Of a stretch of 37,448 bases of DNA, positions 8,503-32,033 are shown piece after piece. How positions within the stretch are numbered: position 1 is the stretch's first letter; every line of letters begins with the position of its first letter. The notes under the pieces are model-generated. The model searched no databases, was not told the DNA's origin, and was given only the letters and a program-made list of their open reading frames with translations. This stretch comes from Nitrospirota bacterium (GTDB lineage: Bacteria; Nitrospirota; Thermodesulfovibrionia; Thermodesulfovibrionales; SM23-35), in the NCBI GenBank assembly GCA_013388435.1, contig JACAFE010000038.1:1-37448 (forward strand), written 5' to 3'. A program made the position numbers and the translations under genes.

Positions 8503-9024
8503 ATGAATATAGAAATCTTAGATAATTATGATTCAAGAGATATCGGTAGTTATAAGGGGCTACTTATATTTATGGAACAATTATTTAGCAGACAAGATAA
8601 TGAAATAGCATATATAAAACAACTTGCAATAAAAATAAAAAGGGGAATTGAAGATATAGATTATTTCATACAGAACGCTACTGATAAAGTCTGTCCTGAA
8701 TGTAAAAATATATGTTGTATCAATAAACATGGACGTTTCAATTTTGAAGATCTTATCTACCTTCATGCCATTGGTGCAAAAATACCTGAAGTAGATTTAA
8801 GCAAAAATGATAAAGAACCATGTCATTTTTTAAATGAAAAGGGATGTTCTTTACATAGATCTTTCAGACCTTCAGGATGCAACTGGTATTTTTGTGATTC
8901 TCTATTTGATGCAATGGAACCTGCTGTTAATTACAGGGACTTTGATGATAAATTAAAAGAAATAGCAGAATCATGGATAAAAATGGTTGAGGAGTTTAAA
9001 AAATACATATGCCTAAACCCGTAG
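8503..9024 (+). CDS. Cysteine-cluster protein (YkgJ/CxxCxxCC-like)
   Basis: 173 aa of unknown function. Eight cysteines group in two blocks: CPECKNICC (Cys64, 67, 71, 72) and PCHFLNEKGCSLHRSFRPSGC...FC (Cys107, 115, 126, 131). The spacing resembles the YkgJ family, whose members are thought to bind an Fe-S cluster or zinc. There is no signal peptide or membrane segment. The start lacks a good ribosome site. Its last 16 bases overlap the start of der, so the two are likely co-translated. The pairing with an essential ribosome-assembly GTPase is only contextual. Confidence 0.75.
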   Translation: MNIEILDNYDSRDIGSYKGLLIFMEQLFSRQDNEIAYIKQLAIKIKRGIEDIDYFIQNATDKVCPECKNICCINKHGRFNFEDLIYLHAIGAKIPEVDLSKNDKEPCHFLNEKGCSLHRSFRPSGCNWYFCDSLFDAMEPAVNYRDFDDKLKEIAESWIKMVEEFKKYICLNP

Positions 9025-10334
9025 TAGTAATTGTTGGAAGGCCAAATGTGGGCAAATCAACTCTTTTTAATAGAATTACAGGAACCCGTACGGCAATTGT
9101 AGAAAATATAGCCGGTATTACAAGAGATCGTAATTATCTTGATGCAGAATGGGAAGGAAAACATTTTATTGTTGTTGATACCGGAGGTTTCTACCCTGAA
9201 TCTGATGATGAAATAATTAAGCAGGTTACTGAACAGGCTCTTTTTGCGATTGAAGAAGGAGATGTCATCATTCATTTGCTCGATGGCAAAACAGGGTTGA
9301 CCCCTCCTGATATTGAACTCTCAAAAAAAATCAGAGCATCCGGTAAAAAGGTAATCTGGGCTGTAAATAAAATAGATGCACATTCAAGAGAAGACAGGTT
9401 ATATGATTTTTATCCAATAGGTTCTGAAGAATTAATACCATTATCTGCAGCAACAGGTTATGGTTATGATGATTTCATGGAAAAGCTTGTTTCCTTGCTC
9501 CCGGAATATAAAGAAACATCTCTCATTTTTCCAAAAATTGCAGTTGTGGGCAAACCAAATTCAGGGAAATCAACTCTTATAAATACACTTCTTAACAAAA
9601 AAAGAATGATAGTAAGCCCTGTGCCAGGCACAACAAGAGATTCAATAGATAGTGTATGTTCCTATTATGGCAAGAAATATCTTTTTATAGATACAGCTGG
9701 AATAAGAAAGAAAGATAAATTCAAGTATTCAATAGAAAAATATTCAATGGTGAGAGCTTTAAAAAGTATTGAAAGATGTGATGTAGCGTTAATAGTCATT
9801 GATTCATTCGAAGGAATTACAGAACAGGATCAGAAAATCGCTGGTATCGTTGAGGAATATGGTAAAGGTTCTATATTCATTCTTAATAAATGGGATTTGA
9901 TGAAAGATCCTGAGAATGATTATAAATTTCTTGGCAAAGAACTACTTAGAAAAATGTGGTTTATGCAATATGCACCATTCATTACCATATCAGCCCTTGA
10001 CAAAAGAAGGGTTACAAAAATATTTCCGTTAATAGACGCCATCCTCAAAGAACGCAGTAAGAGAATTCCGACTGCTGAATTAAATAAAGTTCTTAATGAA
10101 ATATTATCTACTGTTAATCTTCCCGGTTATAAAGGTAAAAGTTTGAAAATATATTACATTACACAGATTAAAACCGCTCCGCCTTCATTCGTACTATTTG
10201 CAAATTATCCGGCAGCTTTCAACGATTTCCATATAAGACATATTGAAAAGATATTGAGAGATCATTTCTCCTTTACTGGCACACCAATAAGAATATATAT
10301 CAAAAATAAAAAAGAAACAAAAAAGAATAAATAG
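9009..10334 (+). CDS. der: Ribosome-assembly GTPase Der (EngA)
   Basis: 441 aa with the unique Der layout of two tandem GTPase domains and a C-terminal KH-like domain. First domain: GRPNVGKST (10-18), DTGG (57-60), NKID (120-123). Second domain: GKPNSGKST (181-189), PGTTRD, DTAG (228-231) and NKWD. The lysine-rich tail (KNKKETKKNK) is typical. Der is needed for maturation of the 50S subunit. The gene overlaps the cysteine-cluster gene by 16 bases, with a GAGGAG-type ribosome site inside it. Confidence 0.98.
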   Translation: MPKPVVVIVGRPNVGKSTLFNRITGTRTAIVENIAGITRDRNYLDAEWEGKHFIVVDTGGFYPESDDEIIKQVTEQALFAIEEGDVIIHLLDGKTGLTPPDIELSKKIRASGKKVIWAVNKIDAHSREDRLYDFYPIGSEELIPLSAATGYGYDDFMEKLVSLLPEYKETSLIFPKIAVVGKPNSGKSTLINTLLNKKRMIVSPVPGTTRDSIDSVCSYYGKKYLFIDTAGIRKKDKFKYSIEKYSMVRALKSIERCDVALIVIDSFEGITEQDQKIAGIVEEYGKGSIFILNKWDLMKDPENDYKFLGKELLRKMWFMQYAPFITISALDKRRVTKIFPLIDAILKERSKRIPTAELNKVLNEILSTVNLPGYKGKSLKIYYITQIKTAPPSFVLFANYPAAFNDFHIRHIEKILRDHFSFTGTPIRIYIKNKKETKKNK

Positions 10335-12287: not shown

Positions 12288-15074
12288 ATGAATATAATTA
12301 AACTTTTTAATGAAATTTCACGTAGTACTCCTGATAAATCAAGATGCCTCAAGAATTTAAAAAGAATGCAAAATATGCATCCTGATTTTCTCGAAAAAAA
12401 TATTCCATTTCTTCCAAATATTGCGATGTTATATGCATGCAGTCAGTTTCTTGCTGATTATTCAATCCTTAAACCCGAAAGTCTTTCTTCAGCTTTGAAA
12501 GAAATAGATTTGCCTATTTCAAAAAACCAAATAATTGATAATTATAAAAATCCAGAAAAAAACTTGTACGGTTTTGATTATAAAAAACAATGTTTTAAGA
12601 TACTAAGAACATTTAAAAAAGATTATCTTTTGAGAATAACTCTAAGAGATCTCACTGGAAAAATTAGTACTGAAGAAAGTGCTTATGAACTGACTGTTCT
12701 TGCAGATGCTTTAATTGAAATTGTTCTCAATATGTCCTTAAGATTAATGAAAGATAATTTTGGGGAGATAAAAGATGATTCTTTTTCAATCTTAGGCTTT
12801 GGCAAGCTCGGTGCAGAAGAACTTAATTATAGTTCAGACATTGATATTATGACCATTTATCTCTCAGAAAGAGAAGTATCCTCTGGCGTAAGAACAGCAT
12901 CAGGCATTTTGAAAAACAGAATAAATTCACACGAATATTTCTGCAAATTAACAGAAATAATTACTAATTTACTTCAAACAGTTACTGAAGACGGATTTTG
13001 TTATAGAGTTGATTTAAGACTTAGACCAAATGGTCAAAAAGGTGCTATCTCGTTGCCTTTAAATGCCTGCCTTCAATATTATGAATCATGGGGAAAGTCA
13101 TGGGAAAGAATTGCCTTGATTCGTTCAAGATTTATTGCAGGTAATACTTTATCAGGCTCGTTATTTATTAAGGGCATAGAACCATTTGTCTGGAAAAAAT
13201 CACTCGATTACAATGATATTGAAGAAATAAAAAGTCTTAAAAAAAGGATTGATAGTATATCTGATATAAATGACATCAAACGAGGTTATGGGGGCATAAG
13301 AGAAATAGAGTTTTTTATTCACGCTTTTCAGTTATTATTCGGTGGAGAAAAATCTAATCTGAGAAAAAGAAAAATTTCTGAGACTTTAAATGAATTATTG
13401 ATTGAAAATCTTCTCTCAAAAAATGAAACCGATATATTAAGTAGCAGTTATTTTTTCTTAAGAAGAATTGAACACTTTCTTCAAATGAGAGATGACACCC
13501 AAACCTATATTATTCCTTCTTCGGATGAAGAACTCGAAATAATTGCAAAGAAAATGCTCTTTGAAAACAAAACAGCTTTCACATCCAAATTAAAACTTAT
13601 AAGATTCAAAGTCAGGGATATATATAACCTGCTTTTCAAAGATACTTTTGAATCGAGTGATTCTATAATTTCTGTATTCGAAGAACTTCCCGATGAAGCA
13701 GTTATTGATTATCTTGAATTTAAAAGCTTCCTGAATCCTCATGAAGCACTTAAAAATATCAGGATATTGAGGGAACAGTTAGCCACATATAAAACTTTAT
13801 ATGAGAGAACCTCTTTAAGAAAATTAATAGCATATTTTCTCGACGAAATTATAAAAACAACAAATAAAGATAGGGCACTTTTAAATCTCATTAATTTTAT
13901 TGACAGGATAGGAGAGCATATATCATTTACTGGAATACTTAAAGAAAGACACGATCTTATAAAGATAATTATCACGACCTTTTCTGCGAGCAGTTATTTA
14001 ACAAGGTCTTTGCTTAATATGGAAAATATAGAAAGTATTTTTGATTTACAAAATATTGACGATAATTTTAAGCAATTTGAAGAGTCAGGCAAAATCCTGC
14101 TCGAAGCAAATGAGATAAAAAAAAGCATTCGTAAATTCAAATCTTATGAAGAATTAAAATCAGGCATATTATTCATTACAGGCAGACTTGATGTTTATAA
14201 TTTTATGAAAAGATTGAGCGCAATTGCAGATGCAATTCTAAAAACAATTACTTCTCTTATAATGCATGATATAAATTTTGCGATAATAGCTTTTGGCAGT
14301 TATGGTTCAAAGGAGCTAAATATAGGTTCGGATCTCGACATTGTTTTCATTGTTTCAGAAGACACTGAATATGATGAATTTCCGGATAGAATCATAAAAG
14401 TTCTAACAGAATATACTGATGCTGGAATTGCTTATAAAGTCGATATGAGATTAAGGCCTGATGGTTCAAAAGGAGTTCTTGTAACTAATATTAAGGGATA
14501 TGAAGAATATTTTCTTAAAAATGCAAAAGCATGGGAAATTCAATTATTGCTTAAAGCACGTCCTATAGCAGGAGAGCCGCTTTTAATTAACAACTTCGAA
14601 GATTTGAGAAGAAAAATTATTTCAAAGAGAAGAAAAGATATTCGCTCACAGGATATACAGGAAATGAGGCAAAAAATAATAAAAGAAATCTCAAAAGAGA
14701 AAAAGGGATATGATTTGAAATTAGGTCCCGGAGGTATTAAAGAAATAGAATTTATTGTTCAATATATACAATTAAAATATGCTGATTTATTCCCTGACAT
14801 TATTATTCAAAACACATCTGAAGCACTAAAGAGAATAGCTTCTTTTTCTCTTATTGACAGGTCAATTTCGAGTTTTCTTATAGAGTCTCACAGATTTCTT
14901 AGAACAATAGACACTATTTTAAGAATGAATAATATAGATGTATTGCAGATTAATTCTGATATTCTTGATATAATAGTTAAATTGGTTAATCTAAATTCCA
15001 GAGAAGAATTAATTGTAAAACTGGAAAATATAAGGTTTAATCTGTCACAGATCTCAGCTGTAATTTACAAATAA
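12288..15074 (+). CDS. glnE: Glutamine synthetase adenylyltransferase/deadenylase GlnE
   Basis: 928 aa, the usual length for bifunctional GlnE. It has two nucleotidyltransferase domains. The N-terminal one (deadenylylase side in E. coli) has GFGKLGAEELNYSSDID at about 170-186. The C-terminal one has AFGSYGSKELNIGSDLD at about 667-684, each with the catalytic DxD. The following RVDLRLRPNGQKG and KVDMRLRPDGSKG blocks and the GGIREIEFFIH and GGIKEIEFIVQ blocks are also present. GlnE adds or removes AMP on a tyrosine of glutamine synthetase under PII control. The target may be the product of the gene two positions downstream. No ribosome site is evident before the ATG. Confidence 0.97.
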   Translation: MNIIKLFNEISRSTPDKSRCLKNLKRMQNMHPDFLEKNIPFLPNIAMLYACSQFLADYSILKPESLSSALKEIDLPISKNQIIDNYKNPEKNLYGFDYKKQCFKILRTFKKDYLLRITLRDLTGKISTEESAYELTVLADALIEIVLNMSLRLMKDNFGEIKDDSFSILGFGKLGAEELNYSSDIDIMTIYLSEREVSSGVRTASGILKNRINSHEYFCKLTEIITNLLQTVTEDGFCYRVDLRLRPNGQKGAISLPLNACLQYYESWGKSWERIALIRSRFIAGNTLSGSLFIKGIEPFVWKKSLDYNDIEEIKSLKKRIDSISDINDIKRGYGGIREIEFFIHAFQLLFGGEKSNLRKRKISETLNELLIENLLSKNETDILSSSYFFLRRIEHFLQMRDDTQTYIIPSSDEELEIIAKKMLFENKTAFTSKLKLIRFKVRDIYNLLFKDTFESSDSIISVFEELPDEAVIDYLEFKSFLNPHEALKNIRILREQLATYKTLYERTSLRKLIAYFLDEIIKTTNKDRALLNLINFIDRIGEHISFTGILKERHDLIKIIITTFSASSYLTRSLLNMENIESIFDLQNIDDNFKQFEESGKILLEANEIKKSIRKFKSYEELKSGILFITGRLDVYNFMKRLSAIADAILKTITSLIMHDINFAIIAFGSYGSKELNIGSDLDIVFIVSEDTEYDEFPDRIIKVLTEYTDAGIAYKVDMRLRPDGSKGVLVTNIKGYEEYFLKNAKAWEIQLLLKARPIAGEPLLINNFEDLRRKIISKRRKDIRSQDIQEMRQKIIKEISKEKKGYDLKLGPGGIKEIEFIVQYIQLKYADLFPDIIIQNTSEALKRIASFSLIDRSISSFLIESHRFLRTIDTILRMNNIDVLQINSDILDIIVKLVNLNSREELIVKLENIRFNLSQISAVIYK

Positions 15075-15196
15075 TTAAGTTAAGTAAATTTATAAAACAA
15101 TCGTATCATCCGGATAAAAGGTAACAAAGTCTGATAACTTACTGGCTTTAAATTTTTTACTCTATTCTTTTTACAACGAGTTTTCAGGAGGTTGTA

Positions 15197-15898
15197 TTGG
15201 CAGTATTAATTATTAAAAACATTATAACCGAAGGTCCGGGAACTATCGGAGATTTTCTTAAAGAAAAACATATAAGTTTCAAAATAGTGGAACTTGGTTC
15301 AGGAGAAATTGCGCCTTCACTTGAAAAATATAATGCACTCATAATACTTGGTGGACCTATGGGTGTTTATGAAATGGACAAATATCCTCATCTTTTATCA
15401 GCTTCTCGAATTATCAGGGAAGCAATAAACAGAGATATTAAGGTTATTGGTATCTGTCTCGGTGCACAACTACTCGCTCATTGTCTCGGTGCTGATGTTT
15501 ATCCTGGTGAAAAGAAAGAAATAGGCTGGCACCATATTGAACTCACTGGCGAAGGGATAAAAGACCCTTTAATGAGACAACTCGCAAAGCATCCCTCAGT
15601 CGGAGATTTCTGGAGAAAATTTAAAGTATTCCACTGGCATGGGGACACATTTACTTTGCCAAACGGAGCTGTTCTTCTTGCAAGTTCTAAAATGTATAAA
15701 CACCAGGCATTTAGATATGGTAATAATATATATGCATTTCAGTTTCATATAGAGGTTACACGTGAGATGATTCTTGAATGGCTGAATGACAATCCTGACA
15801 TAAAAGATATATCTACCGAGACTGAAAGAATATATGAAGAATATACAGGCAGGGCAAGGAACTTTTATAAATTGTTTTTTAAAGAAATTAAGCAATAA
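15197..15898 (+). CDS. Class I glutamine amidotransferase (GMP synthase-like domain)
   Basis: 233 aa free-standing GATase1 domain. The catalytic triad is visible as Cys87 (GICLGAQLLAH), His184 and Glu186 (FQFHIEVT); the oxyanion LGGPMG lies at 51-56. Such proteins hydrolyse glutamine or related gamma-glutamyl compounds. No synthetase partner domain is attached. It starts at TTG, supported by AGGAGG just upstream. It is 21 bases ahead of glutamine synthetase, so the two are co-transcribed. The substrate is not evident; gamma-glutamyl-polyamine hydrolysis or ammonia donation are possibilities, not conclusions. Confidence 0.88.
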   Translation: MAVLIIKNIITEGPGTIGDFLKEKHISFKIVELGSGEIAPSLEKYNALIILGGPMGVYEMDKYPHLLSASRIIREAINRDIKVIGICLGAQLLAHCLGADVYPGEKKEIGWHHIELTGEGIKDPLMRQLAKHPSVGDFWRKFKVFHWHGDTFTLPNGAVLLASSKMYKHQAFRYGNNIYAFQFHIEVTREMILEWLNDNPDIKDISTETERIYEEYTGRARNFYKLFFKEIKQ

Positions 15899-29922: not shown

Positions 29923-29975
29923 GCTTTTTATTAAAATAAAAATTATTCTTTTCCTGAAAAATTAGCTTTTTCTTC

Positions 29976-29988
29976 CAGCAAACTGCTG
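29976..29988 (-). promoter_or_regulatory. SECIS-like hairpin after the second UGA
   Basis: On the minus strand CAGCA-GUU-UGCUG is a perfect 5-bp stem with a 3-base loop that begins with G. The loop starts 19 bases after the UGA at 30005-30003. Bacterial SECIS elements need a small stem-loop at about this distance with G early in the loop; E. coli fdhF has its loop about 18 bases after UGA. The hairpin lies beyond the predicted stop codon at 29996-29994, in the mRNA but not in the protein. Confidence 0.6.
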
Positions 29989-29993
29989 AGTAT

Positions 29994-30209
29994 TCAAACC
30001 ATTCAAGCTCCGCCAAACCCAATAATCACATTGCCTTTTTCAACTATTACAGGAACTTTTCTAATTCCACCAGAAAGCTTCAACATTTCTTCCATTTTTT
30101 TATCATCTGCTTTTACATCATAATACTCAACATTCTCTCCATAAGCATCAAGTGCTTTTTTTGTATATGGTCAACCTGGCTTTCCATAAATAATAATTTT
30201 CTCCAACAA
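29994..30209 (-). CDS. Glutaredoxin-like selenoprotein with two in-frame UGA codons
   Basis: 71 codons if UGA is read as Sec (U). The N-terminus reads EKIIIYGKPGUPYTKKAL, a glutaredoxin-type first strand and active site with Sec13 (UGA 30173-30171) where relatives have Cys. KVPVIVEKGNVIIGFGGA is the thioredoxin-fold cis-Pro strand. A second UGA (30005-30003) gives U69-Met-Val-stop. Both positions are chemically sensible, no other stop or frameshift occurs, and each UGA is followed by a hairpin. I recall a 'Uxx-star' glutaredoxin-like selenoprotein family that fits, but could not check it. Start is TTG at 30209 (AAAGGAG 7 bases upstream) or the adjacent TTG at 30206. It lies 4 bases after the NagA-like stop. 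Read conventionally it would be a pseudogene. If the second UGA is a real stop, the protein ends at residue 68. Confidence 0.85.
30139..30170 (-). promoter_or_regulatory. SECIS-like stem-loop after the first UGA
   Basis: On the minus strand, right after UGA, CCAUA pairs with UAUGG and AGCA pairs with UGCU around the loop CUUGA, with a 9-base bulge on the 5' side. The apical loop starts 18 bases after the UGA. A guanine is in the loop but in fourth place, whereas classical elements have it in the first two positions, so this one is less canonical than the downstream hairpin. Confidence 0.55.
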
Positions 30210-30213
30210 TTTT

Positions 30214-31074
30214 TTACTCCTTTCCTAAATATTTTTTCGGGTTTGATGTTATGCAATTCATTATTATTTCATTTTCATAACCTGAATCAATCAATCTTTT
30301 AGCAGACTCGGTAATTGTTATACCACCGCCAAGCAATTTACCGTAATTATTGTATATACCTTTATTCTCAGAAGAAGTTCCGGTTTCTTTTACTGAGTCA
30401 GAAATAATAATTATTCTTTCAGGATTTTTAACACTAAAAATCAAATCAATTGTTTTTTCATGCAGATGAAAAGGGTCTGCTATTATCTCAATATATACTT
30501 CCTTGTTTAATAAACCAAATCCGGCAAGACCCGGTTCCCTGTGGTGAAACCCTTTCATAGCATTGAATATATGAGTTACTCCCTTTGCACCATGATTATA
30601 CCCATTTTCAGCTTCATTATATGTTGCATCTGAATGTCCCATGCTTGCTATGATTCCAATGTCAGACATTTTTTTAATAAGTTCAGGAGCACCGTCAAGT
30701 TCAGGTGCAATCGTCATAATTTTGATAATATTTTCGTAACCATCAATTAATTCATAGAAATATTTTTCTCTGGGCTCAAGAAAAGTCATGGCATTTAGAG
30801 AGCCGCAATAGGAGGGATTCAGGAAAGGTCCCTCAAGATGTACTCCTGATATTTTTGCTCCTTCATCATTTGATTGATTCTGCATATCCATGGCTTTTCT
30901 TATATTTTCCATATTCTCACGCATTAATTTAATTGTTGCAGGATAAACTGTAAGAATAATTTCTGATACACCTCTTAAGCCTTGAAGACGTGTTATATTC
31001 AGGAGTTGTTTAAAATCTGTGGTTCTTGTGTCATACCCGCCAATTCCATGAGTATGAATATCTATTGTTTTCAT
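30214..31074 (-). CDS. Short NagA-like N-acetylglucosamine-6-phosphate deacetylase
   Basis: 286 aa amidohydrolase. Metal and catalytic residues are recognisable: His7/His9 (DIHTHG), Glu81 (HLEGPF), His147 (MGHSDA), His168 (THIFNAM, followed by REPG) and catalytic Asp226 (SDSV). Their spacing matches NagA. It is about 90 residues shorter than typical NagA (about 380). The N-terminal beta strands before the HxH motif and the C-terminal strands that complete the usual second beta-sandwich domain are missing; it ends at NPKKYLGKE. The ATG at 31074 is preferred, since longer frames run into the divergent rfbA. It is coupled to the selenoprotein gene. NagA versus a related deacetylase is not settled. 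Confidence 0.85.
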   Translation of the reverse strand: MKTIDIHTHGIGGYDTRTTDFKQLLNITRLQGLRGVSEIILTVYPATIKLMRENMENIRKAMDMQNQSNDEGAKISGVHLEGPFLNPSYCGSLNAMTFLEPREKYFYELIDGYENIIKIMTIAPELDGAPELIKKMSDIGIIASMGHSDATYNEAENGYNHGAKGVTHIFNAMKGFHHREPGLAGFGLLNKEVYIEIIADPFHLHEKTIDLIFSVKNPERIIIISDSVKETGTSSENKGIYNNYGKLLGGGITITESAKRLIDSGYENEIIMNCITSNPKKYLGKE

Positions 31075-31133
31075 TAAACTAATCTTATCACAAAAATTAA
31101 TACAATGTGAATAAAAGGGTATTTTAATATTTA

Positions 31134-31147
31134 TTACAGTACTGTAA
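31134..31147. promoter_or_regulatory. Palindromic operator candidate upstream of rfbA
   Basis: TTACAGTACTGTAA is a perfect 14-bp palindrome, 13 bases before the rfbA start, in the 86-base divergent region. It overlaps a possible -10 (TAAAAT, 31145-31150) that would make the rfbA transcript nearly leaderless. No ribosome site precedes the rfbA ATG. The palindrome could bind a small dimeric regulator of both divergent units. Confidence 0.4.
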
Positions 31148-31160
31148 AATAAAATATTAA

Positions 31161-32033
31161 ATGAAAGGAATAATTTTAGCAGGGGGAAGTGGAACAAGAT
31201 TGTACCCTATTACTTTAGGGGTATGCAAACAATTATTACCTATATACGATAAACCCATGATTTATTATCCCTTATCTGTTTTAATGCTTGCAGGGATAAG
31301 GGATATTATGATTATTTCAACACCTGTTGACCTGCCACGCTTTATTCAGATTTTTGGAACAGGAGAAAATCTCGGCCTTAAATTTTCTTACAAGGAACAG
31401 CCGCATCCCGGTGGAATTGCCCAGGCATTTATAATCGCAAAAGAATTTATAGGAGATGACAATGTTTGCCTTGTTCTTGGAGATAATATCTTTTACGGTC
31501 ATGGTTTTACAAATTTACTCAAAAAAGCATATTCTGACATTGAGACAATCGGAGGTGCAACAGTATTCGGGTATTATGTAAATGACCCTGAAAGATACGG
31601 GGTTGTAGAGTTCGATAAAAATGGCAGGGTTCTTTCTATTGAAGAAAAACCAAAAATCCCAAAATCAAAATATGCGGTTACAGGTCTTTATTTTTATGAT
31701 AACAATGTGATTGGTATTGCAGAAAGCATAAAACCTTCCCATAGAGGAGAACTTGAAATAACAGATGTAAATAAAGAATATCTTAAACAACAGAAATTAA
31801 GAGTGGAGCTTATGGGTAGAGGTTATGCATGGCTTGATACAGGCACACATGAAAGTCTTCTTGAAGCAGGAGAATTTATATCTACTATCGAAAAAAGGCA
31901 GGGGCTTAAGATTGCATGTGTTGAGGAAATAGCTTTTAAACTTGGGTATATCACAAAAGAGCAGCTTATCAAACTCGCCCAAAACCTCAATAAAAATGAA
32001 TACGGGAAATACTTAATGCGATTGATAAAATAA
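31161..32033 (+). CDS. rfbA: Glucose-1-phosphate thymidylyltransferase
   Basis: 290 aa. Makes dTDP-glucose from dTTP and glucose-1-phosphate, the first step to dTDP-rhamnose. The N-terminal nucleotide-binding loop [20 protein letters not shown] (6-25) and [18 protein letters not shown] are classic. Metal Asp sits in VLGDNIFYG, and the sugar-binding [16 protein letters not shown] is present. The length matches RfbA/RmlA. It is the first of the plus-strand sugar-nucleotide operon and is followed 4 bases later by rfbC. Confidence 0.97.

Follow-up and report, generated by a model that had tools for sequence, protein, structure and literature searches.

The usual glutaredoxin core has a C-terminal helix after its VP strand and GG loop; this loop, the stretch following the cis-Pro (VP) strand, borders the glutathione site as well as the active site. 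A Sec residue close to the C-terminus occurs in the animal thioredoxin reductases, FAD enzymes with a eukaryotic SECIS that end in Gly-Cys-Sec-Gly. The closest described system to the locus reported here is UXX-star selenoprotein family 1 (NCBIfam NF041114, gluta_UXX_star_1), which a 2026 review tabulates as 'Distant Grx-like protein 1' with the motif UxxT and two Sec residues (PMC13188914).

We analyzed a stretch of 37,448 bases, referred to below as the window, in which a gene of this type lies on the minus strand. Its features are as follows:

29994..30209, minus strand: UXX-star selenoprotein gene, starting with TTG at 30209, 71 codons, two UGA codons (predicted Sec)
30171..30173, minus strand: first UGA, predicted Sec13, within the glutaredoxin-type active-site motif U-P-Y-T (G-U-P-Y-T)
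30143..30157, minus strand: hairpin after the first UGA, candidate SECIS 1 (AAGCA / loop CUUGA / UGCUU, 5-bp stem)
30003..30005, minus strand: second UGA, predicted Sec69, three codons ahead of the stop
29994..29996, minus strand: terminal UGA, the true stop; the same codon is TAA, TAG or TGA in relatives
29975..29989, minus strand: predicted SECIS 2 (UCAGCA / GUU / UGCUGG), beyond the stop codon

The minus strand reads TTG (30209) TTG GAG AAA at the beginning of the gene, GGT TGA (30173-30171) CCA TAT ACA around the first UGA, and GGC GGA GCT TGA (30005-30003) ATG GTT TGA (29996-29994) at the 3' end. The second UGA is thus in the same frame as the first, 56 codons beyond it, and is separated from the terminal UGA by one Met codon (ATG, 30002-30000) and one Val codon (GTT, 29999-29997). 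When both internal UGA codons are read as Sec, the product has 71 residues: MLEKIIIYGKPGUPYTKKALDAYGENVEYYDVKADDKKMEEMLKLSGGIRKVPVIVEKGNVIIGFGGAUMV. An earlier sequence-only reading had proposed a protein of this length with two in-frame UGA codons and a C-terminal U-x-x-stop, ending GFGGA-U-M-V; sequence and frame are as it claimed, the C-terminus follows directly from the last four codons, and the homologues described below agree. TTG 30209 is preferred as the start because an RBS-like GGAG (30220-30217) precedes it by 7 nt and because it aligns with the ATG of the homologue from a genus-mate (L010, MSEKVIIYGKPGU...). The preceding frame (30214-31197) reaches its stop 4 nt ahead of the gene start. 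Sequencing error was considered as the source of the two UGA codons and rejected; the genus-mate shows the same arrangement.

The product matches NF041114 with 108 bits (cut-off 72) over positions 1-70 of the 70-position profile, so that the profile ends at the Met-Val following the second UGA. The broad subfamily model NF041212 (Uxx_star) is also passed (82.4 bits, cut-off 66), as is the Pfam glutaredoxin model PF00462 (42.4 bits, gathering cut-off 22.9), and the glutaredoxin fold is further backed by sequence matches to solved glutaredoxins. The name 'Uxx-star', which had been tentatively suggested for this ending, is therefore the correct one (NF041114, NF041212; review PMC13188914). We are confident that the gene encodes a glutaredoxin-like protein of 71 residues with two selenocysteines, a new member of the already catalogued UXX-star family 1. 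Because NF041114 is catalogued with two Sec residues, the U-x-x-stop ending is typical for the family and not new. Our analysis adds three points: within the homologue set read, the C-terminal Sec is kept more strictly than the first one; SECIS 2 covaries and is located past the stop; and the assemblies of this genus lack selD.

To examine the second UGA, homologues were drawn from the reference genome contigs, from the window's class and from the window's phylum, and read with UGA as Sec. The main set comprised 41 homologues, including the window, and was obtained with an extraction pattern that itself required a C-terminal U; three loci missed by the pattern were read by eye and also had the C-terminal U, and a search of the phylum added 12 further distinct sequences. 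In each of the 56 homologues, window included, a UGA stands exactly three codons ahead of the stop, and the residue was never replaced by Cys or by any other (0/56). All 56 end in U-x-(V/I/L)-stop, and the Val codon shows synonymous changes. Within the 41 homologues, the dipeptide after the C-terminal Sec was GV in 34 and NV, AV, MV, IV or RI in the others, and the stop codon that follows was TAA in 18, TGA in 13 and TAG in 10. The conserved dipeptide, followed by a second and freely varying stop, indicates that UGA 30005-30003 is not a real stop. Endings at GG(A/S/T), which the sequence-only reading had named as the finding that would make the second UGA the true stop, were sought among the 56 homologues and none was found; the alignment it had proposed, for Cys or UGA three codons before the stop, gave UGA throughout. 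A Cys form of this position was also sought in the phylum through family 2 (NF041211), with no match above the cut-off, and no plasmid relatives of the UXX-star gene were found.

The second UGA is followed by a hairpin whose stem has five perfect pairs, CAGCA (29988-29984) with UGCUG (29980-29976), plus one U.G pair, closed by the loop GUU (29983-29981). This hairpin had been placed 19 bases after the UGA, which holds for the loop, with G as its first base, but not for the stem, which begins 13-14 nt after. In the window alone the hairpin is not significant, since its stem of 6 was equalled by 10.8% of 1000 dinucleotide shuffles. Across the 41 sequences, however, when the loop was required to lie 16-21 nt downstream of the second UGA, the best stem had a mean of 6.93 pairs, versus 3.31 in dinucleotide shuffles. 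Covariation of the helix was scored in 34 relatives with an imperfect alignment (0.413 versus 0.212 shuffled, reached in 0/500 shuffles) and in 22 relatives picked for clean alignment, with a 3-nt loop or the 5-nt equivalent (0.515 versus 0.260 shuffled, 0/500). In these 22 relatives, 92% of positions were paired, 25 cells were changed on both sides versus 7.6 in shuffles, and pairing fell to 30-42% when the partners were shifted by one base. Since the hairpin lies beyond the stop codon, this pairing is unexplained by coding constraint, and the homologues bear out a hairpin that belongs to the second UGA.

A covariance model built from the 22 relatives, with the window and its genus-mate left out, was then scored over both strands of the 37,448 bases with filters off. 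The best match was 30005-29966 (20.8 bits, E 0.0013; E-values are rough at this calibration), and as the UGA and its two following codons are part of the model, the score does not come from the stem alone. The site in the genus-mate scored only 4.8 bits, yet it has its own 7-bp stem and G-first loop, so there the hairpin is retained though the sequence has diverged. The second-best match (13.4 bits, E 0.085), at 8988-9011 on the plus strand (UGAGGAGUUUAA), has no hairpin; it falls at the overlap of the open reading frames 8503-9024 and 9009-10334 and is probably a chance match. A search of the window against Rfam, with the gathering threshold and with a relaxed one, found no SECIS, and sub-threshold matches within the gene were taken as chance.

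These results bear on the possibility that translation ends at the second UGA, in which case a protein with one Sec would end at GFGGA and both the MV-UGA extension and the hairpin would be due to chance, or the hairpin would be a terminator. The shuffles of the window alone would allow a chance hairpin. We nevertheless regard this explanation as extremely improbable: every homologue runs on for two codons and no more, in most cases Gly-Val, before any one of the three stop codons, and the hairpin shows covariation and an almost constant spacing from the UGA. Moreover, gene neighbours vary across lineages, which means that the conservation is not carried by a common 3' context, and there is no T run directly after the hairpin. 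Both chance read-through and a terminator hairpin were rejected, and we take decoding of the second in-frame UGA as selenocysteine to be almost certain.

The first Sec position is less strictly kept. It is UGA in most homologues and Cys in 5 of the 56 (L023, L024, L025, L026 and L096), which all keep the C-terminal UGA; the presence of Cys at the active site together with UGA at the C-terminus indicates that the two Sec residues evolve independently. In one further homologue (L030, genome G181, contig 63, about position 1525), TAA replaces UGA at the first Sec codon and the C-terminal UGA is again kept. A tRNASec (UCA) lies about 720 bp from this gene, and a second, more divergent tRNASec copy is found on contig 55. 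The alignment of 38 family members shows a UxxT active site without a second Cys. The loop of the SECIS 1 candidate lies 18 nt after the first UGA, the same place as in most relatives, and the mean stem at this site was 4.17 versus 2.76 expected (41 sequences). In the window alone this candidate has a P of 0.07 in dinucleotide shuffles, and its loop lacks a leading G, which makes the assignment weaker.

We propose that SelB and Sec-tRNASec(UCA) would read UGA 30005-30003, because the stem-loop at 29989-29975 sets a G-first loop 19 nt downstream of it. SECIS 2 would then act from the 3' untranslated stretch, past the stop codon. Nine bases on, the terminal UGA is probably too near to the loop for recoding and would terminate the chain, giving a product that ends ...IGFGGA-U-M-V.

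Bacterial SelA requires SelD, the selenophosphate synthetase, and we searched for the Sec machinery in the window's genome (G000, a draft of 88 contigs, 98% complete) and in that of its genus-mate (G099). The window's genome contains selA (631 bits), selB (contig 27), a second selB (contig 20), a tRNASec with anticodon UCA that is nearly identical to the tRNASec of SelD-bearing relatives, and a formate dehydrogenase alpha gene with one in-frame TGA (contig 58). In both genomes tRNASec has been kept, as have selenoprotein genes with UGA codons, FdhA among them. No selD scored over the cut-off in either genome; in the other family genomes tested it did so in 12 of 12, nearly always with one TGA. 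The five AIRS_C matches in the window's genome are PurM, HypE and ThiL, identified with NCBIfam models, and two within one 1326-aa frame, which by its size is PurL; the genus-mate likewise has five. In a relative (G104), selD, yedF and an aminotransferase gene stand beside selC*/selB*. The equivalent place in the window's genome (region L130:2819-3859) is occupied by A+T-rich sequence, a Se/S-carrier-like ORF (PF11823), yedF and the aminotransferase gene, and no selD remnants were found there. A cysteine desulfurase family gene, yedF and the Se/S-carrier-like gene persist where the relative has selD.

The missing selD could be a true loss or a gap common to both assemblies, and nothing else weakens the case for Sec as the residue inserted. 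It seems unlikely that the genus has lost selD and yet keeps selA, selB, tRNASec, a UGA-containing fdhA and the double-UGA UXX-star gene with its hairpins preserved, a situation that would call for another selenium donor or for UGA being decoded otherwise. On contig 20 of the window's genome, a tRNASec-like tRNACys with anticodon GCA (15540-15631) lies directly upstream of the second selB (13633-15489) (L056, L002, L130), and tRNAs of the same type occur in the genus-mate and in several family members. The contig 20 pair fits the selC* tRNACys / selB* system of Mukai 2017, for which Nitrospirae are named (PMC7609411). In principle, UGA could be recoded to cysteine (or serine) through the loss of SelD or through such a second SelB/tRNA pair, and both the lack of a detected SelD in the two genomes and the tRNACys adjoining the second selB fit with this. 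By the usual rules, however, the GCA anticodon of selC* does not read UGA, whereas the tRNASec carries UCA and scarcely differs from that of relatives having SelD. Retention of this tRNASec and of UGA-containing FdhA in both genomes also argues against such recoding, and SelD might be absent from the assemblies only, so that we consider insertion of cysteine or serine very unlikely. Actual insertion of Sec at the second UGA is strongly expected.

In the UXX-star product the GG loop is followed only by A-U-M-V. Since the GG loop borders the active site in glutaredoxins, the tail Sec69 is probably near the active-site Sec13. Sec69 would then be in reach of Sec13, and the two could form a diselenide or jointly hold a substrate or metal. 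The protein is thus likely a seleno-glutaredoxin, in which the tail Sec would be paired with the active-site Sec for redox or metal binding. A redox pair formed by Sec13 and Sec69, which we give about an even chance, is slightly favoured over metal binding. The alternative function, which leaves the decoding unchanged, is that of a double-Sec ligand or carrier for metals or metalloids, with the Sec pair binding a soft metal (Hg, As, Cu). The UxxT motif, which leaves the active site without a second Cys, would suit this role, and the Sec residues of UXX-star proteins have been proposed as possible metal ligands (PMC13188914). Metal-resistance genes, however, were not seen among the neighbours, which in the window include polysaccharide genes and in relatives vary, and we hold the metal-carrier role to be possible though rather unlikely. 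Conserved gene neighbours were also sought across lineages as a clue to function, and there were none.

The presence of two Sec residues in a protein of 71, one of them three from the end, suggests strong selection on recoding at the last codons of the gene. The tail Sec (56/56) being stricter than the active-site Sec, it may be the tail that is essential in this uncharacterised family. The position of SECIS 2 past the stop makes its covariation readable free of coding constraint, and the 13 of 41 scored members (about a third) that end in U-x-x-UGA provide a natural test of how close a UGA can be to its SECIS and still act as a stop. The case also helps annotation, since genes of this kind may be cut short or overlooked by gene callers.

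In comparison with known systems, the product shares with NF041114 the UxxT site, the two Sec residues with the second one three residues from the end, and a full-length match. It differs in the tail, which is U-M-V or U-I-V in the window's genus and U-G-V in most members, and in the weaker, more A+T-rich hairpins of this genus. With UXX-star families 2 and 3, the Uxx_star subfamily and the HUGP/GUXX-star fusion, it has in common the glutaredoxin-like core and the U-x-x-stop naming, although it scores under the cut-offs of the family 2, family 3 and fusion models (NF041211, NF047338 and NF045501). It belongs to the same sequence family as the glutaredoxins of PF00462 (including Grx3 and NrdH), with the same active-site position, VP strand and GG loop, but it is shorter, ending after the GG loop, has UPYT instead of CPYC, and carries a C-terminal Sec. 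The animal thioredoxin reductases are unrelated proteins, the FAD enzyme and the eukaryotic SECIS being theirs; the inferred likeness to them is a near-terminal Sec on a short tail that would work with a second redox centre.
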